Part shown: positions 1,123 to 14,504 of the stretch, piece after piece
Layout of the letters: every line of letters starts with the position of its first letter
Numbering within the stretch: the stretch's first letter is position 1
Source: Chloroflexota bacterium
GTDB taxonomy: Bacteria; Chloroflexota; Anaerolineae; Promineifilales; Promineifilaceae
Reading direction: 5' to 3'
Length of the DNA: 51,381 nt
Assembly (NCBI GenBank): GCA_018004935.1
Contig: JAGNBF010000052.1
Location: 1 to 51,381 of the forward strand
Position numbers and translations under genes: made by a program
The notes under the pieces: generated by a model
What the model saw: the letters and a program-made list of their open reading frames with translations, nothing else
Told to the model about the DNA's origin: nothing
The model's database searches: none

Positions 1123-4100
1123 ATGGCTGATGATTCCTGGATTGGTTATGTTGTGGCCGAGCGTTATCGTATCGAATCGTTATATTACAACACCAGAGCG
1201 GCCGCGTTATATAAAGGTGTAGATTCTCACACCGAAGTCCCGGTTGTCATTCACCTGGCGAACCCCGAGTTTAGTCAAAATTCCCTCTTCCGAAATGAAT
1301 TTGACAAACAAAACCGCCGTTTGCAATCATTAGAACATCCGGCTCTTGTGCCAATTTTGGCAGTGGGTGAGGTGCGGGATAGATTATTTATGGTCAGTCC
1401 GTTTCTCAGTGGTGGGGCGCTAAGTGAGCATGTGGCTCGTCAGTGGACGGCGGAAGAAACGGATGAAGTTGTTGATCACATTGGCGCGGCCCTGGTTTAT
1501 TTGCATGATCAGGAGATGCCCCATTTGAATGTATCGGCGGAGAGTATTGTGTATGATGAGGATTCGCGGCCGCATCTCTCCCTCGGTTTTGGCCGTATCT
1601 GGCGTTTCGTTGACCCGGCCGCTGGTAGAGACGAATACACCGTTCCTGAGCAAGTTTCCGCCAAAGAAGTCTTGATTGCGCCCCAAGTAGATGTGTATGC
1701 CCTGGCCGTGGTTTTGTGGTTCATGGTTACAGGCAAGTTGCCATACCATGATGTACCTTTGGAAAAACAACTGGCCGAAATTGGCCCCCATTCCGGCTTA
1801 CCCGAAGGCTGGCGGGCTGTGTTGGCACGGGCTACAGCTACCGACCCGGCACGCCGTTTTGCCTCTGTGCCGGAGTTCCTTTCTGCCTGGCAGGCGGTGA
1901 AAGATGTTGAGCCGGAAGAACAACCGAGTTTTTGGACTAAAGCCAAGGCGTATGCCCAAAAAGGCCGGGAAGCGGCCAACGAGTTATTCCAATCGCGGCG
2001 TTTGCTCCTCCCGGATAAACCTTCGACTACGGTTACGGCCCCAGACTCATCTTATGCCCAACAGACGATTCGTTCTCAGCCTATGCCGGTGGCCGAGGAG
2101 ATGGAACAAGTGGCGCGTACTGACGCCAATAGTTACACCTCTCCACAGCGGGAAACAGCCGACCCAATAATTACTGAAACAACGCGGCCGCAGGCCAACA
2201 TCCCCCCTGCCAATAAAGAACCAGAGCCACCCCCTCTTACCCCAGCCCCTATCAAGGGGGAATTTCGCTTTTTTAAAGACCTACCCCCAGAAGCCTGGCC
2301 TGGTCAGTCGCTCAATTTTGTCGTCGGATTGATGAATCTGGGCGAAGATGAATGGCAAATTGCTGACTCCCCCTGGCAATGGCGCATTAGAAGTAGCCTG
2401 GCCACGGTCACGGGTGAAAACGTGGGCCAGCAGATTATTGAGCTAAAGGAAAATATTCCCAGTCTGGAGCGGCGGGTAAGTGATGTCCACCTGACGACCC
2501 CGCGCCAACCGGATAAGTATTACCTGCAATGCCAGTTACAACGGATTCACAAAGAAACCGAGGTCCAGGAAATCGCCATCGAGACGGATCCCTTTGTGAT
2601 GCAGGTAACTGATTTGGCCCAACTGACGCTGGCTGAGTTACGGGAATCACCGACCAATTTGACGGTGGCCGGGGAACGAGTGTGGCTGGAAGCCCTGCGA
2701 CAGAGAGTTCAGGGGGAAACCATCACCCCCACGGAGCGGGAGGTGGTGTTGCTGGATACGTTTCTGGCTATCTGGGGTAATGGGGGTAGTGTGCGTGTGC
2801 TGAACGCGGCCGCGAACGCTTTACACCAACTTGCCCCTCTGCCAGTGACCCAGGGCACAGTAAACGATCTGGTAACGACCTTTTTACAGGGCAATGCGGC
2901 CGCGCAGATCAATGTGCAAAGCCTGATTGACCACCGTAGCACCAGCCAGCGCTTAAAAGATTGGTTACAAGAGCACCTGAAAGCCCTCAAAGAGCGGACA
3001 TCGGTACCGGTTGTTGATGAGCCGTCAACAGTTAGCCGTGATCGCCTGCTGGCGGATCGCGAACCAGTACAGGATGGCCTCTTTGGTCGTCCATCTTCCA
3101 TCCTTCAGCGCCCCTTCTTGCCCTCCTTTATTTTACCCCCGGAACAGATTGCCCAGAGCCAACCCTTACCGCAAAAAGTCGTTCTGGACATTGGCCCCCA
3201 GTGGAGCAAACTCACCTTTGGGGGTGAAAATTATGAAAGCCCCACCCGGCTCGATGAGATGCTCCTGCGCCAATTGACTCTGAAGCGGCGCGAATATGGC
3301 ATGGCACTATTCGAGGCCATTATTCACGACCGGGATCGCCAGAATGAGCGCAAAACCGCCACCCATATCGGTTATGAATTTGCCCGCCGGGAAGCCCGCG
3401 AAGGGTTGTATATTGAGTTAAACCTGGATGACAGCCTGCATCAATATTGTTGGGAAAATCTGTGTAACCCGGATGGGTTGCCCATTGGTATCAGTGACCG
3501 CACCCCGCTTTACCGGCGCGTGCGGGCGAATGTCAATAAAACACGGGTAGATTACGGCAAATTGCGTATTTTGGTGATGATTTGTAGCCCCATCAATCTT
3601 GGCCCTACTTCCGAAAATACGATTTTGCAGGGGTTGGCCCCCATTAACGTGGAAGCAGAGCAGGCCCTCATCGAAGGGGCGTTGTCGCGGTTGCGTGAGG
3701 CGGGCCTGGTGGAATATACCCTTTATGATGGGGGCGAGGGTCGTAAGGCAACGTTACAAAATTTACGCGATGAACTGGAAAAACGGGATGAAGAGGCGTA
3801 TCACATTGTCCATCTGATTGCCCACGGCACGCAGGCGGGGGGGCAGTTCCGCCTGGTGATGGAAGGGGAAGAAACCCCCCATGCGCTGGTGACGGCTACC
3901 GATTTTAAGACGGTGCTGGCCCGGGGTGAGGTGCGCCTGGTTATTTTGAGTACCTGTTTCACGGCCTCGGTTCCGGGAGATGAGGGTGAGGATGACGCGG
4001 CCGCGTCGCCTGATTCTACTCTCGTTTTGCCCAGTTTGGGGCAACAACTGGTGCGCGAGGCCGATATTCCCGCTGTCATTGCGATGCAGGGTTTGCTCAA

Positions 4101-5586
4101 AGTGGATACGGCCGCCCTCTTCCACCGCCATTTTTACGACGACCTGGCCCGTAATGGCCGCGTTGCTCGGGCGCTGGCCGTTACCCGTGGGGCCATTTAC
4201 GACGCTGAGAAAAACCGACCCCAATCGGGCTGGGGTGTACCTACCCTGTTTATGGGTACGGATGATGACTGGCTTTTTGGGTTAGATAAACGGAAGGTCA
4301 AACAGTTAGAATCTTTGCCCCGCCTGCCTGAAGAAGCCCGAAAACTGTTGCGTGAAGGCGACTGGGAAACTATTCGTCAAAAGGTGGAAGGGATGTGGGG
4401 GGGGAACTGGCCGGAATTTTTGCGGCCGCCTTTGGCGCAAACGGCCGCTGTGCCTACCCGTCCACTGGCTCCGGCGCAAAACCTGCCCTACTTGAATGAC
4501 CATTTGCGGCCGCAAGTGCATTTTAAGTCAGACCTATTGGCTGAGATGGTAAAGAAAAATAGTGGCCTGGAAGTACCCCCGATTGTGTACCGGCAGGTAG
4601 CCTCAGCTCTGAATGCGGGGAAACATATCTTGCTTACCGGGCCACCGGGAACGGGCAAAACGTCACTGGCCCAGGCTATTTGTGCCTACGCCCAGAGCCA
4701 GGATCATACCGAAGATCCTATTCTCACCACCGCCACTGCTGACTGGACTACCTTTGATACGATTGGTGGTTATGTGCCTAATGCCACAGGGCAGTTGCAA
4801 TTCCGTCCGGGTATCTTCTTGCGGGCCATTCGTGAAGCCTCATGGCTGGTGATTGATGAGATGAATCGGGCGGAGATTGACAAGGCATTTGGGGAACTGT
4901 TCACCGTGCTCTCTGGTCAGCCTATTGAGTTGTCTTATACGGTTGAGGAGAAGCCGGTAAGGGTCTTACCTTCGGTTAAAGATGTTCTTTGGGTTCCGCC
5001 GCTGGACGAAGGGTTTCATAATATTGTCATTTACCCGGCCTGGCGCATTATTGGCACGATGAATGTGTATGACAAGTCATTTTTGTTTAACATGTCGTTT
5101 GCTTTTATGCGCCGCTTTGCCTTCATTGATGTAGATCTGCCCCCACGCCATACCTATAATCGGCTCATTCGGGGCTGGTTGACTCAACCTGATGATCGTT
5201 TTCCGCCGCTGGATGTGGCTACCATTGCCCATATTCGCGGCTTGTTCCGGCTGTTTTTGCGCCTGAGTAACCCGCAAACCCCGTTGATGCGCCGCCGTGC
5301 GCTTGGCCCGGCGATTTTGAAGGATATGATTGCCTATGTGCGGGATCGATATGGGGAGGAGGGAATCGCGGCCGCGTTGCCCGATATTTTTGGTGAGGCG
5401 TTTATTATGTATGCCTTACCCCAACTAGATGGCCTGGATCATGATTCCATTCTGGATGTAGATGCCCATTTGCATGATTTGTTGGCCCCGCTCAGTCAAT
5501 CTATGCAGGCGACCTTGCGGCAACGTTTGCGCCTGCTTTATCCCCACATCCACACTGCCGAATGGCAGGCAACGAGTAAAACATAG
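1123..5586 (+). CDS. Pseudokinase / Ig-like / CHAT protease / McrB-type AAA+ fusion protein
   Basis: A 1487-residue multidomain protein. Residues about 8-255 have a Ser/Thr protein kinase fold but look catalytically dead: HRD is HLN (134-136), DFG is GFG (155-157), and the VAIK lysine is missing (VVIHLA). A Pro-rich linker leads to an Ig-like NBR1-type segment (about 378-490) and a helical stretch. A CHAT (caspase-HetF-associated) cysteine-protease domain follows at about 685-1050, with candidate dyad H901 (LIAHGT) and C945 (LSTCF). The C-terminus is a McrB/MoxR-like AAA+ ATPase with Walker A GPPGTGKT at 1173-1180, Walker B D1245-E1246 (DEMNRAE) and a GTMN sensor. CHAT proteases and McrB-type ATPases both occur in bacterial conflict and cell-death systems, so a sense-and-cleave role is an inference. 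The substrate is unknown. The stop touches the next start, implying co-transcription. Confidence 0.88.
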   Translation: MADDSWIGYVVAERYRIESLYYNTRAAALYKGVDSHTEVPVVIHLANPEFSQNSLFRNEFDKQNRRLQSLEHPALVPILAVGEVRDRLFMVSPFLSGGALSEHVARQWTAEETDEVVDHIGAALVYLHDQEMPHLNVSAESIVYDEDSRPHLSLGFGRIWRFVDPAAGRDEYTVPEQVSAKEVLIAPQVDVYALAVVLWFMVTGKLPYHDVPLEKQLAEIGPHSGLPEGWRAVLARATATDPARRFASVPEFLSAWQAVKDVEPEEQPSFWTKAKAYAQKGREAANELFQSRRLLLPDKPSTTVTAPDSSYAQQTIRSQPMPVAEEMEQVARTDANSYTSPQRETADPIITETTRPQANIPPANKEPEPPPLTPAPIKGEFRFFKDLPPEAWPGQSLNFVVGLMNLGEDEWQIADSPWQWRIRSSLATVTGENVGQQIIELKENIPSLERRVSDVHLTTPRQPDKYYLQCQLQRIHKETEVQEIAIETDPFVMQVTDLAQLTLAELRESPTNLTVAGERVWLEALRQRVQGETITPTEREVVLLDTFLAIWGNGGSVRVLNAAANALHQLAPLPVTQGTVNDLVTTFLQGNAAAQINVQSLIDHRSTSQRLKDWLQEHLKALKERTSVPVVDEPSTVSRDRLLADREPVQDGLFGRPSSILQRPFLPSFILPPEQIAQSQPLPQKVVLDIGPQWSKLTFGGENYESPTRLDEMLLRQLTLKRREYGMALFEAIIHDRDRQNERKTATHIGYEFARREAREGLYIELNLDDSLHQYCWENLCNPDGLPIGISDRTPLYRRVRANVNKTRVDYGKLRILVMICSPINLGPTSENTILQGLAPINVEAEQALIEGALSRLREAGLVEYTLYDGGEGRKATLQNLRDELEKRDEEAYHIVHLIAHGTQAGGQFRLVMEGEETPHALVTATDFKTVLARGEVRLVILSTCFTASVPGDEGEDDAAASPDSTLVLPSLGQQLVREADIPAVIAMQGLLKVDTAALFHRHFYDDLARNGRVARALAVTRGAIYDAEKNRPQSGWGVPTLFMGTDDDWLFGLDKRKVKQLESLPRLPEEARKLLREGDWETIRQKVEGMWGGNWPEFLRPPLAQTAAVPTRPLAPAQNLPYLNDHLRPQVHFKSDLLAEMVKKNSGLEVPPIVYRQVASALNAGKHILLTGPPGTGKTSLAQAICAYAQSQDHTEDPILTTATADWTTFDTIGGYVPNATGQLQFRPGIFLRAIREASWLVIDEMNRAEIDKAFGELFTVLSGQPIELSYTVEEKPVRVLPSVKDVLWVPPLDEGFHNIVIYPAWRIIGTMNVYDKSFLFNMSFAFMRRFAFIDVDLPPRHTYNRLIRGWLTQPDDRFPPLDVATIAHIRGLFRLFLRLSNPQTPLMRRRALGPAILKDMIAYVRDRYGEEGIAAALPDIFGEAFIMYALPQLDGLDHDSILDVDAHLHDLLAPLSQSMQATLRQRLRLLYPHIHTAEWQATSKT

Positions 5587-9146: not shown

Positions 9147-9932
9147 ATGGAAGCAACCTTCCGTTTTTATGCCGATTTAAATGATTTTTTACCCCCTGAT
9201 AAACGCCAGCGCACATTGATTGTGCCCTTCAATGAACCGGTATCGGTTAAGCATCTCATTGAGGCGATTGGTGTTCCTCACCCAGAGGTTGAACTGATCT
9301 TGCGCCATGATCAACCGGTGGATTTTTCGGCTTTGGTGCAGGATGGGGATCGGGTGGCGGTGTATCCCTTGTTTCACACCTGGGAATGGGAGGCGAGACC
9401 AGCCTTGCGGCCGCGTCTTCCTGACCCGCTCATCTTTATTTTAGATGGACACCTGGGCCAACTGGCGGCCTACCTGCGTATGTTGGGCTTCGATTGCCTT
9501 TATCGCAACAATTATGATGACCCGGAACTGGCACAGGTTTCTCATGATGAGAATCGGGTTCTGTTAACCCGTGATCGGCGGTTGCTCATGCGCAAACAGG
9601 TGATTCATGGCTACTGTTTGCGGGCTTCGGATCCCCGGCAACAGTTGTTGGAAATGATGCACCGATTTGCTTTGCGGCCGCATATTCGCCCCTGGCAACG
9701 GTGTATTCGCTGTAACGGGGATCTCATTCCCATTGCCAAAGACGCCATTGCCGACCGGCTGGAACCCAAGACGCGTCTTTACTACGACGAATTCCAGATT
9801 TGCCAATCATGCCAGCAAATTTATTGGCAAGGCTCACACTTTCGCCGGATGCAACCGTTTATCCATGAAATTGTTAATGGGCATGGTGAGAGTGAACCGG
9901 GAAATGGGCGATTTAACGATGGTCACGCGTAA
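9147..9932 (+). CDS. Ubiquitin-like domain / Mut7-C RNase domain protein
   Basis: 261 residues. Residues 1-80 have a ThiS/MoaD-like beta-grasp pattern (TFRFYADLNDFLP ... VQDGDRVAVYPLF). From about 92, a Mut7-C (PIN-like, DUF82) domain starts with FILDGHLGQLAAYLRMLGFD and continues with a second acidic motif in LLTRDRRLL. The C-terminus carries a zinc ribbon (CIRCNG ... CQSCQQIYWQGSH). The beta-grasp plus Mut7-C plus zinc-ribbon order is a known bacterial architecture, with Mut7-C a predicted RNase. The molecular target is not known to me. It is flanked by repeat-rich spacers and so is probably monocistronic. Confidence 0.88.
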   Translation: MEATFRFYADLNDFLPPDKRQRTLIVPFNEPVSVKHLIEAIGVPHPEVELILRHDQPVDFSALVQDGDRVAVYPLFHTWEWEARPALRPRLPDPLIFILDGHLGQLAAYLRMLGFDCLYRNNYDDPELAQVSHDENRVLLTRDRRLLMRKQVIHGYCLRASDPRQQLLEMMHRFALRPHIRPWQRCIRCNGDLIPIAKDAIADRLEPKTRLYYDEFQICQSCQQIYWQGSHFRRMQPFIHEIVNGHGESEPGNGRFNDGHA

Positions 9933-10993: not shown

Positions 10994-11875
10994 ATGCCCG
11001 TAGACAGCTTTAAGTTTCTCCCCCGTCTCATCAGTACGTTTTACCAGACCGTGGCCCGTGAACCGGAGATGCCCATTCCCTGGACAGCCGTAACGCGGCC
11101 GCAATCCGAAACCATTTTTGGCCTCATTACCTCAGCCGGGTTATATGACCGGGGTACACAACCCCCTTTTGACCTGGAACGAGAAAAAGCGGAACCCACC
11201 TGGGGAGATCCCAGTTTCCGCCCTATTGCCGCCACCATCCCTCGCGATCAGATTGCGGTGAGTCATTTGCACCTCAACAGTACCGATTTATTGAGAGATG
11301 TTAATATTCAATTACCGCTAGATCGGTTTCAGGAAATGGCGGAAGAAGGGATGATTGGGGGGGTGGCGCGGACAGCTTACTCGTTTATGGGGTATCAGGG
11401 TTTTCCCCCGAACGCGGCCGCGTGGCAACATGTGTATGGTCCCCAGGTAGCCGGTCTACTCAAAGCCGAGGGGGTGACAGGCGTTCTCCTCACGCCAGCC
11501 TGACCGGATTGCTCCATCAACGTGCCCGTGTTGGCACGCACACTAGAAGCGTATGGCCTCTCTACCGTTCTTGTCACCAATATGCCTTTTTGGGCGGAAA
11601 AAATAGGGGTGCCGCGTACCCTGGCGGTGGAGTTTCCCTTTGGGCATATGCTGGGGCAACCGGGTGACATTACCACCCAGAGGCGTGTTATCGCGCAGGC
11701 GTTAGCGGTGTTGAGGACAGCTACCATACCCGGTACGATTGTTCACAGTGATGAGGTGTGGCCCGTCCCGGCGGTTGAAGCCATGAAAGCGTGGCAACCC
11801 GCCGAGCCATCTCCCGTGATTGCCGTGTTAGGGCCGCAACTGCGCACCATGTTACGCGGACGACACCCCATGTAG
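10994..11875 (+). CDS. GrdB/PrdB-family selenoprotein, read through in-frame UGA (Sec170)
   Basis: Two same-frame open stretches (10994-11503 and 11504-11875) are separated only by TGA at 11501-11503. Read through, they give one protein of about 293 residues. It resembles the glycine/sarcosine/betaine/D-proline reductase selenoprotein B family: ITSAGLYDRGTQPPFD, AVSHLHLNSTDLLRDVN, GVARTAYSFMGYQG, then LLTPA-U-PDCSINVPVLARTLEAYG. The UGA sits where the family has its redox-active Sec or Cys, giving UxxC (Sec170, Cys173). A hairpin 18 bases after the UGA fits a bacterial SECIS element. Members reduce substrates through selenol chemistry; this one's substrate is unknown. selA, selB and selC are not in the window. 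The alternative is a nonsense-mutated gene, which I consider less likely because the downstream half is well conserved in family pattern. Confidence 0.85.
11501..11538 (+). promoter_or_regulatory. Sec UGA codon and candidate bSECIS hairpin
   Basis: After the UGA, a perfect six-base-pair stem CGTGCC (11521-11526) / GGCACG (11533-11538) encloses the six-base loop CGTGTT, whose second base is G, 25 bases after the UGA. Known bacterial SECIS elements sit just 3' of the UGA with a G near the start of a small apical loop, so position and shape fit. Confidence 0.7.
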
Positions 11876-11910: not shown

Positions 11911-12351
11911 TCATTCCTGGCATTTAGGGCAGATGCCATAAAGTTCCAGGAGATGACCCTGAATGCGGAAATTAAAGCGGCCGCAAATCACTTTTGCTAC
12001 CTCTTCTAAGGCACAATCATCAAATTCAATCACCTGGTGGCATAAGTTGCACACCAGATGGTGGTGATGGCCCTCGTGGAGAAAAATATAATGGGCCGCC
12101 CCCGTTCCTTGATAAATAGGACGTACAACCCCTAACTCACACAATAATTCCAGTGTGCGGTAGACTGTCATCCGGCCCACCTGGGGGGCTACAGTATGAA
12201 CCCGTTCGGCCAGATCGTCGGCACTGAGGTGCCCCCCGGCAGTAATAAACGTGTCTAAAATAATCCGCCGCGCCTGAGTCAGGCGGAAGCCTTGCTTTTG
12301 TAATGTATCTAATGTTGTCTGTAATCGTTTTTCTGAGTGATTTGCGCCCAT
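11911..12351 (-). CDS. Fur-family metalloregulator (Fur/Zur/PerR)
   Basis: About 146 residues from the ATG giving MGANHSEKRL. The winged helix includes GFRLTQARRIILDTF and the recognition region GRMTVYRTLELL. The dimerisation domain has HEGHHHHLVC and two Cys-X2-Cys pairs (CNLC, CPKC) for structural zinc. The start lies one base after the stop of the metal ABC permease, so it is co-transcribed with a metal importer; this favours a Zur- or Mn/Fe-sensing role over generic Fur. A longer frame starting at 12414 would overlap the permease gene and adds an unlikely Arg/Glu-rich leader. It probably represses the operator-like palindrome upstream of the ATPase gene. Confidence 0.87.
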   Translation of the reverse strand: MGANHSEKRLQTTLDTLQKQGFRLTQARRIILDTFITAGGHLSADDLAERVHTVAPQVGRMTVYRTLELLCELGVVRPIYQGTGAAHYIFLHEGHHHHLVCNLCHQVIEFDDCALEEVAKVICGRFNFRIQGHLLELYGICPKCQE

Positions 12352-12352
12352 T

Positions 12353-13225
12353 TTAGCCTCTCTCGCTCTGGCTCTTGCCTCTCGTTCGCGCTCCCCAGCC
12401 GTACCGCCACACAACCCCTTTACCCGGAGCGAAGAGGAAAACCAGGATAAAAATAAGAGTGGCGATCAATACGACGGCAGGGCCGGAGGCAATGTTGGCG
12501 TAGTAGGATAAATATAAGCCGCTGATACCGGAGAAGACGCCAATCGCGGCCGCGAGCATCATCATCCAGTGTAAGCGATTTGTTAATTGGTACGCGGCCG
12601 CGGCCGGTGTTACCAACATCGCCAACATCAATGAGACCCCCACCGTTTGCAAGGCCACCACAATCGTTACCGCCAATAGAACTAACAACAGGTAGCGGAA
12701 AAAACGCACCGGCAAACGGAGCGTGACCGCCAGAAGTGGATCAAAGGCGATGACCAAAAACTCTTTGTAAAACACCAGAATGGTCAATAAAACCACGGTT
12801 CCCAGCACCGTCGAAATAATTAAATCATTTACGGAAACGCCTAGTAAATTGCCAAAAAGAATGTGGGTCAGGTCTACGGAATAATCCCGTTGTGTGGAGA
12901 GAAGCGCAATTCCCAGGGCAAACATCCCAGAAAACAGCACCCCAATCGCTGTATCCTCTTTTACCTGGCCTTGCTCTGTGACCAGGCCAATGGCTACAGC
13001 CGTTATCACCCCAGCCAACAAGGCCCCCCACGAAAGAGGCCACCCCAGAAAGAAGGCAACAACCACGCCGGGTAAAATGGCATGAGCCAGGGCATCGCCC
13101 AGAAAGGACATTCCGCGCAGGACAATGTAGGCCCCGATAACCGGGCACACAAGCCCTACCAGAAGCGAGGCCAACAGACCACGTAAGATAAAATTATATT
13201 GGAGCGGATCAAGAAGCCAGTTCAT
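12353..13225 (-). CDS. Zinc/manganese ABC transporter permease (ABC-3 family)
   Basis: 290 residues, eight to nine hydrophobic helices. The pattern PVIGAYIVLRGMSFLGDALAHAILPGVV and VGVSLMLAMLVTPAAAAYQLT is typical of ZnuB/MntB-type permeases. It would form the membrane channel of a high-affinity metal importer powered by the ATPase encoded upstream at 13683-14504. An ACAGGAAAAT ribosome binding site precedes the ATG. The stop is one base from the regulator gene's start. The gap to the ATPase gene is unusually long (457 bases) and filled with repeats. No periplasmic metal-binding protein is seen nearby. Two GCGGCCGC sites encode Ala tracts in membrane helices. Confidence 0.9.
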   Translation of the reverse strand: MNWLLDPLQYNFILRGLLASLLVGLVCPVIGAYIVLRGMSFLGDALAHAILPGVVVAFFLGWPLSWGALLAGVITAVAIGLVTEQGQVKEDTAIGVLFSGMFALGIALLSTQRDYSVDLTHILFGNLLGVSVNDLIISTVLGTVVLLTILVFYKEFLVIAFDPLLAVTLRLPVRFFRYLLLVLLAVTIVVALQTVGVSLMLAMLVTPAAAAYQLTNRLHWMMMLAAAIGVFSGISGLYLSYYANIASGPAVVLIATLIFILVFLFAPGKGVVWRYGWGARTRGKSQSERG

Positions 13226-13682
13226 ATTTTCCTGTGTAACTCAGGACTTACGTGTGGTGGATGGTATCCCCACCAAAGCCCAACGAGCACGGTCAGGCTT
13301 GCACTGAGCAAAGCCGAAGTGAGACCCGCTCGAGTAATCGCGTAAGTCTTAAGGGGAATTTGGTTCTTAGGATTGACGATTAAATAACTTGAACATTTAC
13401 TGTGGCTGATCGCCTGACGGTGCCACTCCCCGCGAACAAGTTATTGGTTCTTTGGGGAATTCAGGAGATTGACACTAGATGTAGGGGCTGGCCTTGTGCC
13501 TACCCTGTGTAGGGCAACTACAAGGGTTGCCTGTACCCCATGAGACCCCAAAGAACCCGTTATTTAGTTCTCATTCCTTAGTAATCGTTCGGAAATAAGA
13601 TAGGTGGCGCAGTCAGGAGACCGGCCACAGCAAACCGCTAAGTTAAAACGGAACGTTTATCGTTCAAACGGAGAATTGCTGA
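13226..13682. other. Repeat insertion inside the metal-transport operon
   Basis: No gene seen. It contains a GGGAATTCAGG ... GTAGGGGCTGGCCTTGTGCC repeat (about 13451-13560) closely matching 23603-23708, and a GGTGGCGCAGTCAGGAGACCGGCCACAGC repeat (about 13603-13645). It separates the ATPase gene from its permease, so transcription must cross it or a second promoter must serve the permease. Confidence 0.7.
13451..13560 (+). repeat. REP-like repeat of the GGGAATTCAGG family
   Basis: Close copy of the repeat at 23603-23708, with the same order of blocks and the same palindromic GGGCAACTACAAGGGTTGCC core. It sits inside the metal-transporter gene cluster. Confidence 0.7.
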
Positions 13683-14504
13683 TTAATGTTCACAACAAGT
13701 GTCAGCTAATATCAGGGTATCAGCACCTGTATGAAGGAGGTGCATATGCCCTCCATACGCGGCCAACAGATGGGGCGCGGTAAGGGATGTATCGGCTGAC
13801 CCATAGGCCACGATTTGCCGGTTAAGGAGAAGCACTTTGTCAAAACGTGCGGCCGCGAGGTTCAGATCATGTGTCGCCACCAACACCGTCACCCCATCTG
13901 GCCGTAAGTTATCCAAAATGGTGAAAATCGCCTCCTGGTTAGGTGCATCTAACCCGGTCAGAGGTTCATCCAACAATAGGAGAGACGCTTCTTGAGCCAG
14001 GGCGCGGGCAATAAAAACCCGTTGTTGTTGCCCCCCAGATAATTCGCCAATTTGCTTGTTGACCAGATGCAAGGCATTCACCCGTTCCAGACTGTGATGT
14101 ACCACATCCCAATCCTGTTTGCGCGGCCACCGGAACAGCCCCATCTTGCCAACCCGCCCCATCATAACCACTTCCGTCACTGTAACGGGGAATTTCCAAT
14201 CAATCTGACTTCGTTGAGGTACATAACCGATGCAGGTATGGGTGGCTGGTTGGTGGCCGTAAATCTGTATTTGGCCTGCCGTTGGGCGTAATGTGCCGAC
14301 AATGAGATTAAAAAGGGTGCTTTTGCCAGCGCCATTTGGCCCAACGATGGCGATTCGCTCGCCTCGTTCTACCTGAAAAGAAACCATTTCCAGGGCATCT
14401 TTAGCGGTACTGGGATAACGAACACATACTTTCTGAAGTCGCAGGGCCGGAGTTTTTTCCTGGTGTAGGGAAACATGATTTTGACGCATAACAGGTTGGT
14501 CCAT
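13683..14504 (-). CDS. Zinc/manganese ABC transporter ATP-binding protein
   Basis: 273 residues with all ABC ATPase motifs: Walker A GPNGAGKST (55-63), Q-loop VPQRSQID, signature LSGGQQQR, Walker B LLLLDEP, D-loop TGLD and switch ATHD. The VPQRSQIDWKFPVTVTEVVMMGR stretch resembles MntA/ZnuC/TroB-type metal importers. It ends in a His/Cys-rich tail (CCEH). The first ATG lies only three bases from an imperfect palindrome and lacks a Shine-Dalgarno sequence, so the mRNA may be leaderless; a second ATG at 14489 is possible. It is first in the minus-strand unit ATPase-permease-regulator. Confidence 0.9.
   Translation of the reverse strand: MDQPVMRQNHVSLHQEKTPALRLQKVCVRYPSTAKDALEMVSFQVERGERIAIVGPNGAGKSTLFNLIVGTLRPTAGQIQIYGHQPATHTCIGYVPQRSQIDWKFPVTVTEVVMMGRVGKMGLFRWPRKQDWDVVHHSLERVNALHLVNKQIGELSGGQQQRVFIARALAQEASLLLLDEPLTGLDAPNQEAIFTILDNLRPDGVTVLVATHDLNLAAARFDKVLLLNRQIVAYGSADTSLTAPHLLAAYGGHMHLLHTGADTLILADTCCEH

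Follow-up and report, generated by a model that had tools for sequence, protein, structure and literature searches.

Described PrdB-like selenoproteins and family placement

The PrdB proteins of Terrisporobacter glycolicus (WP_081011614.1) and Peptoclostridium acidaminophilum (WP_148296006.1) carry selenocysteine (Sec) in a UxxC motif encoded at a TGA after which a hairpin can be drawn, and the Terrisporobacter gene lies in a prdC-prdA-prdB cluster, near prdA and prdC. PrdB-type selenoproteins were reported from Deltaproteobacteria in 2006, with "proline reductase" selenoproteins listed for Anaeromyxobacter and Geobacter (PMC1794560). According to a 2008 report on the Global Ocean Sampling data, PrdB is among the abundant marine selenoproteins, and 235 Sec and 110 Cys forms with a UxxC motif, assigned to pfam07355, coexist there (PMC2398784). 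In addition, the NCBI name "glycine/sarcosine/betaine reductase selenoprotein B family protein" is given to stand-alone, PrdB-like proteins of about 300 residues that lie outside prd and grd operons in Roseomonas (WP_207415257.1) and Haematobacter (WP_035710215.1). Our literature search returned no named function for stand-alone PrdB-like proteins.

The window, i.e. the whole analysed stretch of 51,381 nt from a Chloroflexota genome, contains at 10994-11875 (+) a gene whose predicted product shares about 220 homologous residues with the two clostridial PrdB proteins at 33% identity, with Sec opposite Sec, the UxxC motif and a hairpin after the TGA in common. It differs from both by the motif UPDC in place of UGTC and by a C-terminal extension, and it stands alone whereas the Terrisporobacter gene is clustered. 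The Roseomonas and Haematobacter proteins resemble it in length and isolation, but they are only 27-28% identical to it and have CPxC for UPxC, that is, Cys and not Sec. The marine proteins are likened to it by family name, the available part of that report giving the same assigned family and the UxxC motif but no substrate (PMC2398784), and those of Anaeromyxobacter and Geobacter by their listing as PrdB-type selenoproteins outside Clostridia (PMC1794560). With reports of PrdB-like selenoproteins that stand alone dating from 2006-2008, and a name for such proteins in use at NCBI, the window protein is a further example of a kind known before. The locus points to a Chloroflexota lineage that uses selenocysteine in a PrdB-like enzyme without operon partners, one of a widespread family whose redox motif is conserved.

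The best NCBIfam match of the protein is PrdB (TIGR04483, residues 29-249, E 4.4e-39), where it scores 134.3 bits and the equivalog cut-off is 300, whereas the GrdB-type models, including TIGR01918, match weakly, over their last 120-160 positions only, and far below the NCBIfam cut-offs. The Pfam model PF07355 (GRDB) matches residues 38-167 with 28.1 bits, above its gathering threshold of 22. Judged by these profiles, the protein is nearer to PrdB than to GrdB, yet it stays under the PrdB equivalog cut-off. The assignment to the GrdB/PrdB family made in a first-pass annotation of the DNA agrees with these matches and with the alignment of Sec to the Sec of PrdB. The predicted protein belongs to the PrdB/GrdB superfamily, stands alone and is PrdB-like in its redox motif, a likeness that stops short of identifying it as PrdB.

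Reading frame of the gene

The frame from 10994 to 11875 holds a single internal stop, the TGA at 11501-11503 (+), which is codon 170, and ends with the stop TAG at 11873-11875. As the first-pass annotation had anticipated for gene callers, the mechanical ORF list of the window breaks this conserved gene in two, giving a piece of 169 aa and, in the same frame, a downstream piece of 117 aa that starts at GTG. Translation through the TGA joins these two open stretches, again as proposed, into a protein of 293 aa (293 codons including Sec170) with UPDC at residues 170-173 as the UxxC of the redox site. The ATG at 10994 agrees with the N-termini of the homologues, which read MxVDSFKFLPR. Among 73 aligned homologues, Cys173 (codon at 11510-11512, +), presumably the cysteine that resolves in UxxC, is invariant. 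Outside this motif, a nearly invariant HxH is formed by H91-L92-H93 (11264-11272, +), both histidines being conserved in more than 90% of the same sequences.

Conservation of the UGA codon among homologues

Homologues were sought in 59 related genomes, in 400 genomes drawn from the phylum and in 84,980 named species genomes. They are present in 21 of the related genomes and in 99 of those drawn from the phylum, while 115 places were matched in the named species, 80 of which were kept; among the named species, the nearest relatives belong to the Chloroflexota and chiefly to the Anaerolineae. The scan patterns sat elsewhere in the protein and did not include the UGA, so there was no selection for TGA. 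Codon 170 could be read in 108 homologous loci, some of them duplicated, which amount to 97 distinct sequences; it is TGA in every one, and TAA or TAG, the other stops that the first-pass annotation had set against its own reading, occur in none of them. TGA-bearing homologues come from Chloroflexota, Actinomycetota, Thermodesulfobacteriota, Pseudomonadota and others. The alignment at residue 170 that had been suggested also covers relatives with no stop, from other Chloroflexota families, and all 13 that were read have Cys (TGC or TGT) there; in a quick tree they fall in a clade of the family more distant than that of the window protein. The position is therefore conserved as UGA or as Cys, the pattern by which membership among bacterial selenoproteins is judged. 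It is this comparison that settles the case for Sec, because a single hairpin near a UGA is not proof.

In the close alignment, seven of the eight relatives share 61-66% identity with the window protein and have Sec. Together with the naturally occurring Cys forms, these relatives make a comparison of Sec with Cys practical. Two genomes, G404 (L169, L170) and G345 (L171, L172), each have one Cys copy and one Sec copy of PrdB-like genes.

A hairpin downstream of the UGA

A candidate bSECIS hairpin lies at 11521-11538 (+), with a 6-bp stem (CGTGCC/GGCACG, 11521-11526/11533-11538) and a 6-nt loop (CGTGTT, i.e. CGUGUU, 11527-11532) whose second base is G. These features are as described in the first-pass annotation, but its spacing of 25 bases has to be corrected, since the distance from the UGA to the loop is 23 nt. 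Published criteria for bSECIS elements are a loop of 3-9 nt, a stem of 4-16 bp, a G as first or second base of the loop, a spacing of 16-37 nt and a minimum free energy of -7.5 kcal/mol or below (PMC13188914), and the window hairpin, with a predicted fold of -9.9 kcal/mol, lies within all of them. Taken singly, however, it was rejected as proof: a hairpin satisfying the same rule follows 71 of the 1789 TGA triplets of the window (4%), and its folding energy is ordinary with respect to dinucleotide shuffles (z 0.38 and -0.83). For the window gene alone, synonymous recoding matches its pair count in 14% of trials.

The homologues give a clearer signal. In the clade of the window gene (register A, 61 distinct sequences), 6.57 of 7 pairs are kept against 4.41 +/- 0.13 under synonymous recoding, and in the other clades (register B, 36 sequences) 5.89 of 6 pairs against 3.71 +/- 0.15. 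At offsets 22 and 35 from the UGA, 43 sequences have T-A as the register A pair, 12 have T-G and 4 have C-G, and this T-A/C-G variation is, as read from the alignment, a change on both sides with the pair kept. Moreover, of the 282 codons tested, 176-179, where the 5' arm lies and the loop begins, stand near the top for synonymous constraint (ranks 2-4, with ties). By these measures the hairpin is under selection and is kept far beyond the needs of protein coding. The gene family has two hairpin registers, the loop beginning 18 nt after the UGA in register B and 23 nt in register A (L001-L030, L049-L128). Register A forms one clade in the quick tree (98% SH-aLRT), and the simplest account is that the hairpin moved once, by about 5 bases, within a conserved protein.

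Selenocysteine machinery and decoding of the UGA

The expectation that the organism makes selenocysteine was borne out on searching the genome that contains the window (G000, completeness 96.6%), where selA (568 bits), selB (364 bits), selD (376 bits) and a tRNA-Sec gene (selC, 63 bits, anticodon UCA) are all above curated cut-offs; SelB and tRNA-Sec, on which that expectation had been made to depend, are both present. The selD gene (G000:C207:94470-95402) has one in-frame TGA, as in most relatives, and selenophosphate synthetase is probably itself a selenoprotein in this group. No selA match was obtained in three relatives bearing homologues (G020, G026, G037), all of which are fragmented and two of which are 78-85% complete. 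Similarly, G322, a 95% complete Chloroflexota genome, has several TGA-bearing genes of GrdB/PrdB type and no selA match, for which an assembly gap or another route to Sec may account. Within the family f37, Cys is found in G067, G197 and G281, with no selA match, and TGA in G098, where selA is present; the Cys form also occurs with selA in other genomes, so the link between selA and Sec is not strict.

If the UGA were an ordinary stop, owing to a nonsense mutation or a sequencing error, the gene would be broken or split into two proteins, as the ORF lists with their 169 and 117 aa have it. This explanation is exceedingly improbable: the same TGA recurs in 108 loci from several phyla and independent assemblies, the protein is still conserved in the half downstream of it (R182, E185, R208 and G221, for example, are invariant in the 73 homologues), and the hairpin is under selection. 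Decoding of the UGA as tryptophan or some other standard amino acid is hardly more credible. The frame stays open under any sense reading, but Trp is never found among the 13 stop-free relatives read, which all have Cys, the Sec machinery is present, and the conserved hairpin would be left without a role. On the comparative evidence, the in-frame stop of this Chloroflexota gene is almost certainly read as selenocysteine.

Predicted structure and proposed mechanism

The structure model of the protein (pLDDT 96.3, pTM 0.94) places Sec170 between a strand (163-167) and a helix (171-186). Redox pairs of the CxxC type usually lie at such a place, just before a helix and after a strand. A profile search of the PDB gave only weak or partial matches or matches to designed proteins, and a fold search with Foldseek gave a best E of 0.023 with a probability of 0.25. 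The best fold match in a second look (Z 8.0, rmsd 3.9 over 142 residues) was to a LacI-type core, which may perhaps merely reflect a common arrangement. As no PDB structure found by these searches could be called a confident relative, the catalytic role is read from the UxxC motif and from homology.

The comparison indicates that the hairpin just 3' of the UGA recruits SelB with Sec-tRNA-Sec, whereby UGA 170 is read as Sec, and from the sequence and the predicted structure Sec170 and Cys173 would form the selenol/thiol pair of the UxxC motif. The motif further suggests that the selenolate may attack an oxidised or electrophilic small-molecule substrate, that Cys173 may then resolve the selenium adduct as an Se-S bond, and that a thioredoxin-like donor may re-reduce the Sec170/Cys173 pair. 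The protein is probably a selenol/thiol redox enzyme and not a proline reductase.

Genomic context, partners and lifestyle

The gene is flanked in the window by genes for a Mut7-C protein, a methyltransferase, a Fur-family regulator and an ABC-3 transporter, with no prd cluster at the locus. Among 80 loci with flanks of up to 8 kb, no neighbouring gene family recurs, the commonest "neighbours" being the gene itself and its own antisense frame; gene neighbourhood was rejected as a clue to function. The earlier proposal of a location outside the classic glycine and proline reductase operons is supported by these observations, no prd or grd operon being found. In the classic enzymes, a pyruvoyl-type partner, PrdA or GrdE, binds the amine substrate. 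The corresponding family PF09338 had no match in any of the 59 genomes, including the window's own, whereas the same search found it in 5 of 11 other Chloroflexota, which served as positive control. GrdA (PF04723) likewise gave no match in the 59 genomes, and since no positive control matched either, no absence is claimed. Finally, haem-copper oxidase genes are encoded in the genome, which disfavours Stickland fermentation as the main way of life.

These data bear on whether the gene encodes a subunit of a classic reductase. A genuine PrdB subunit of D-proline reductase, belonging to a dispersed prd system, would accord with the best NCBIfam match, the 33% identity and the shared Sec position; we consider it unlikely, as the score of 134 bits compares with a cut-off of 300, UPDC stands where the two aligned PrdB proteins have UGTC, an extension of about 45 C-terminal residues is missing from both of these, PF09338 is absent from the genome and its 58 relatives, and the gene stands alone. 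A truncated subunit of GrdB type, from a glycine, sarcosine or betaine reductase, could explain why PF07355 and TIGR01918 match weakly over the C-terminal half of GrdB, but with matches confined to the end of the models, scores far under the cut-offs and no GrdE-type subunit in 59 genomes, it is very improbable. Proline or glycine reduction is unlikely because no PrdA/GrdE-type partner was found in the genome. We hold with high confidence, from sequence comparison, that the gene encodes a stand-alone selenoprotein of 293 residues with a Sec170/Cys173 redox pair, for which a role in proline or glycine reduction is unlikely. More tentatively, and with somewhat less than even confidence, the UPxC clade might represent a lone-acting selenoenzyme of respiring bacteria that has no pyruvoyl-type partner and catalyses a reductive reaction new to selenoproteins.

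Some other features of the window can be mentioned. Convergent to the selenoprotein gene, genes for a Fur-family regulator, an ABC-3 type metal permease and an ABC ATPase (11911-14504, -) form an arrangement resembling a locus for the uptake of zinc or manganese. A ubiquitin-like domain is fused with a Mut7-C RNase domain at 9147-9932 (+), and a chain of 1487 aa encoded at 1123-5586 (+) combines protein kinase and CHAT domains with an AAA_5 ATPase domain at its C-terminus.
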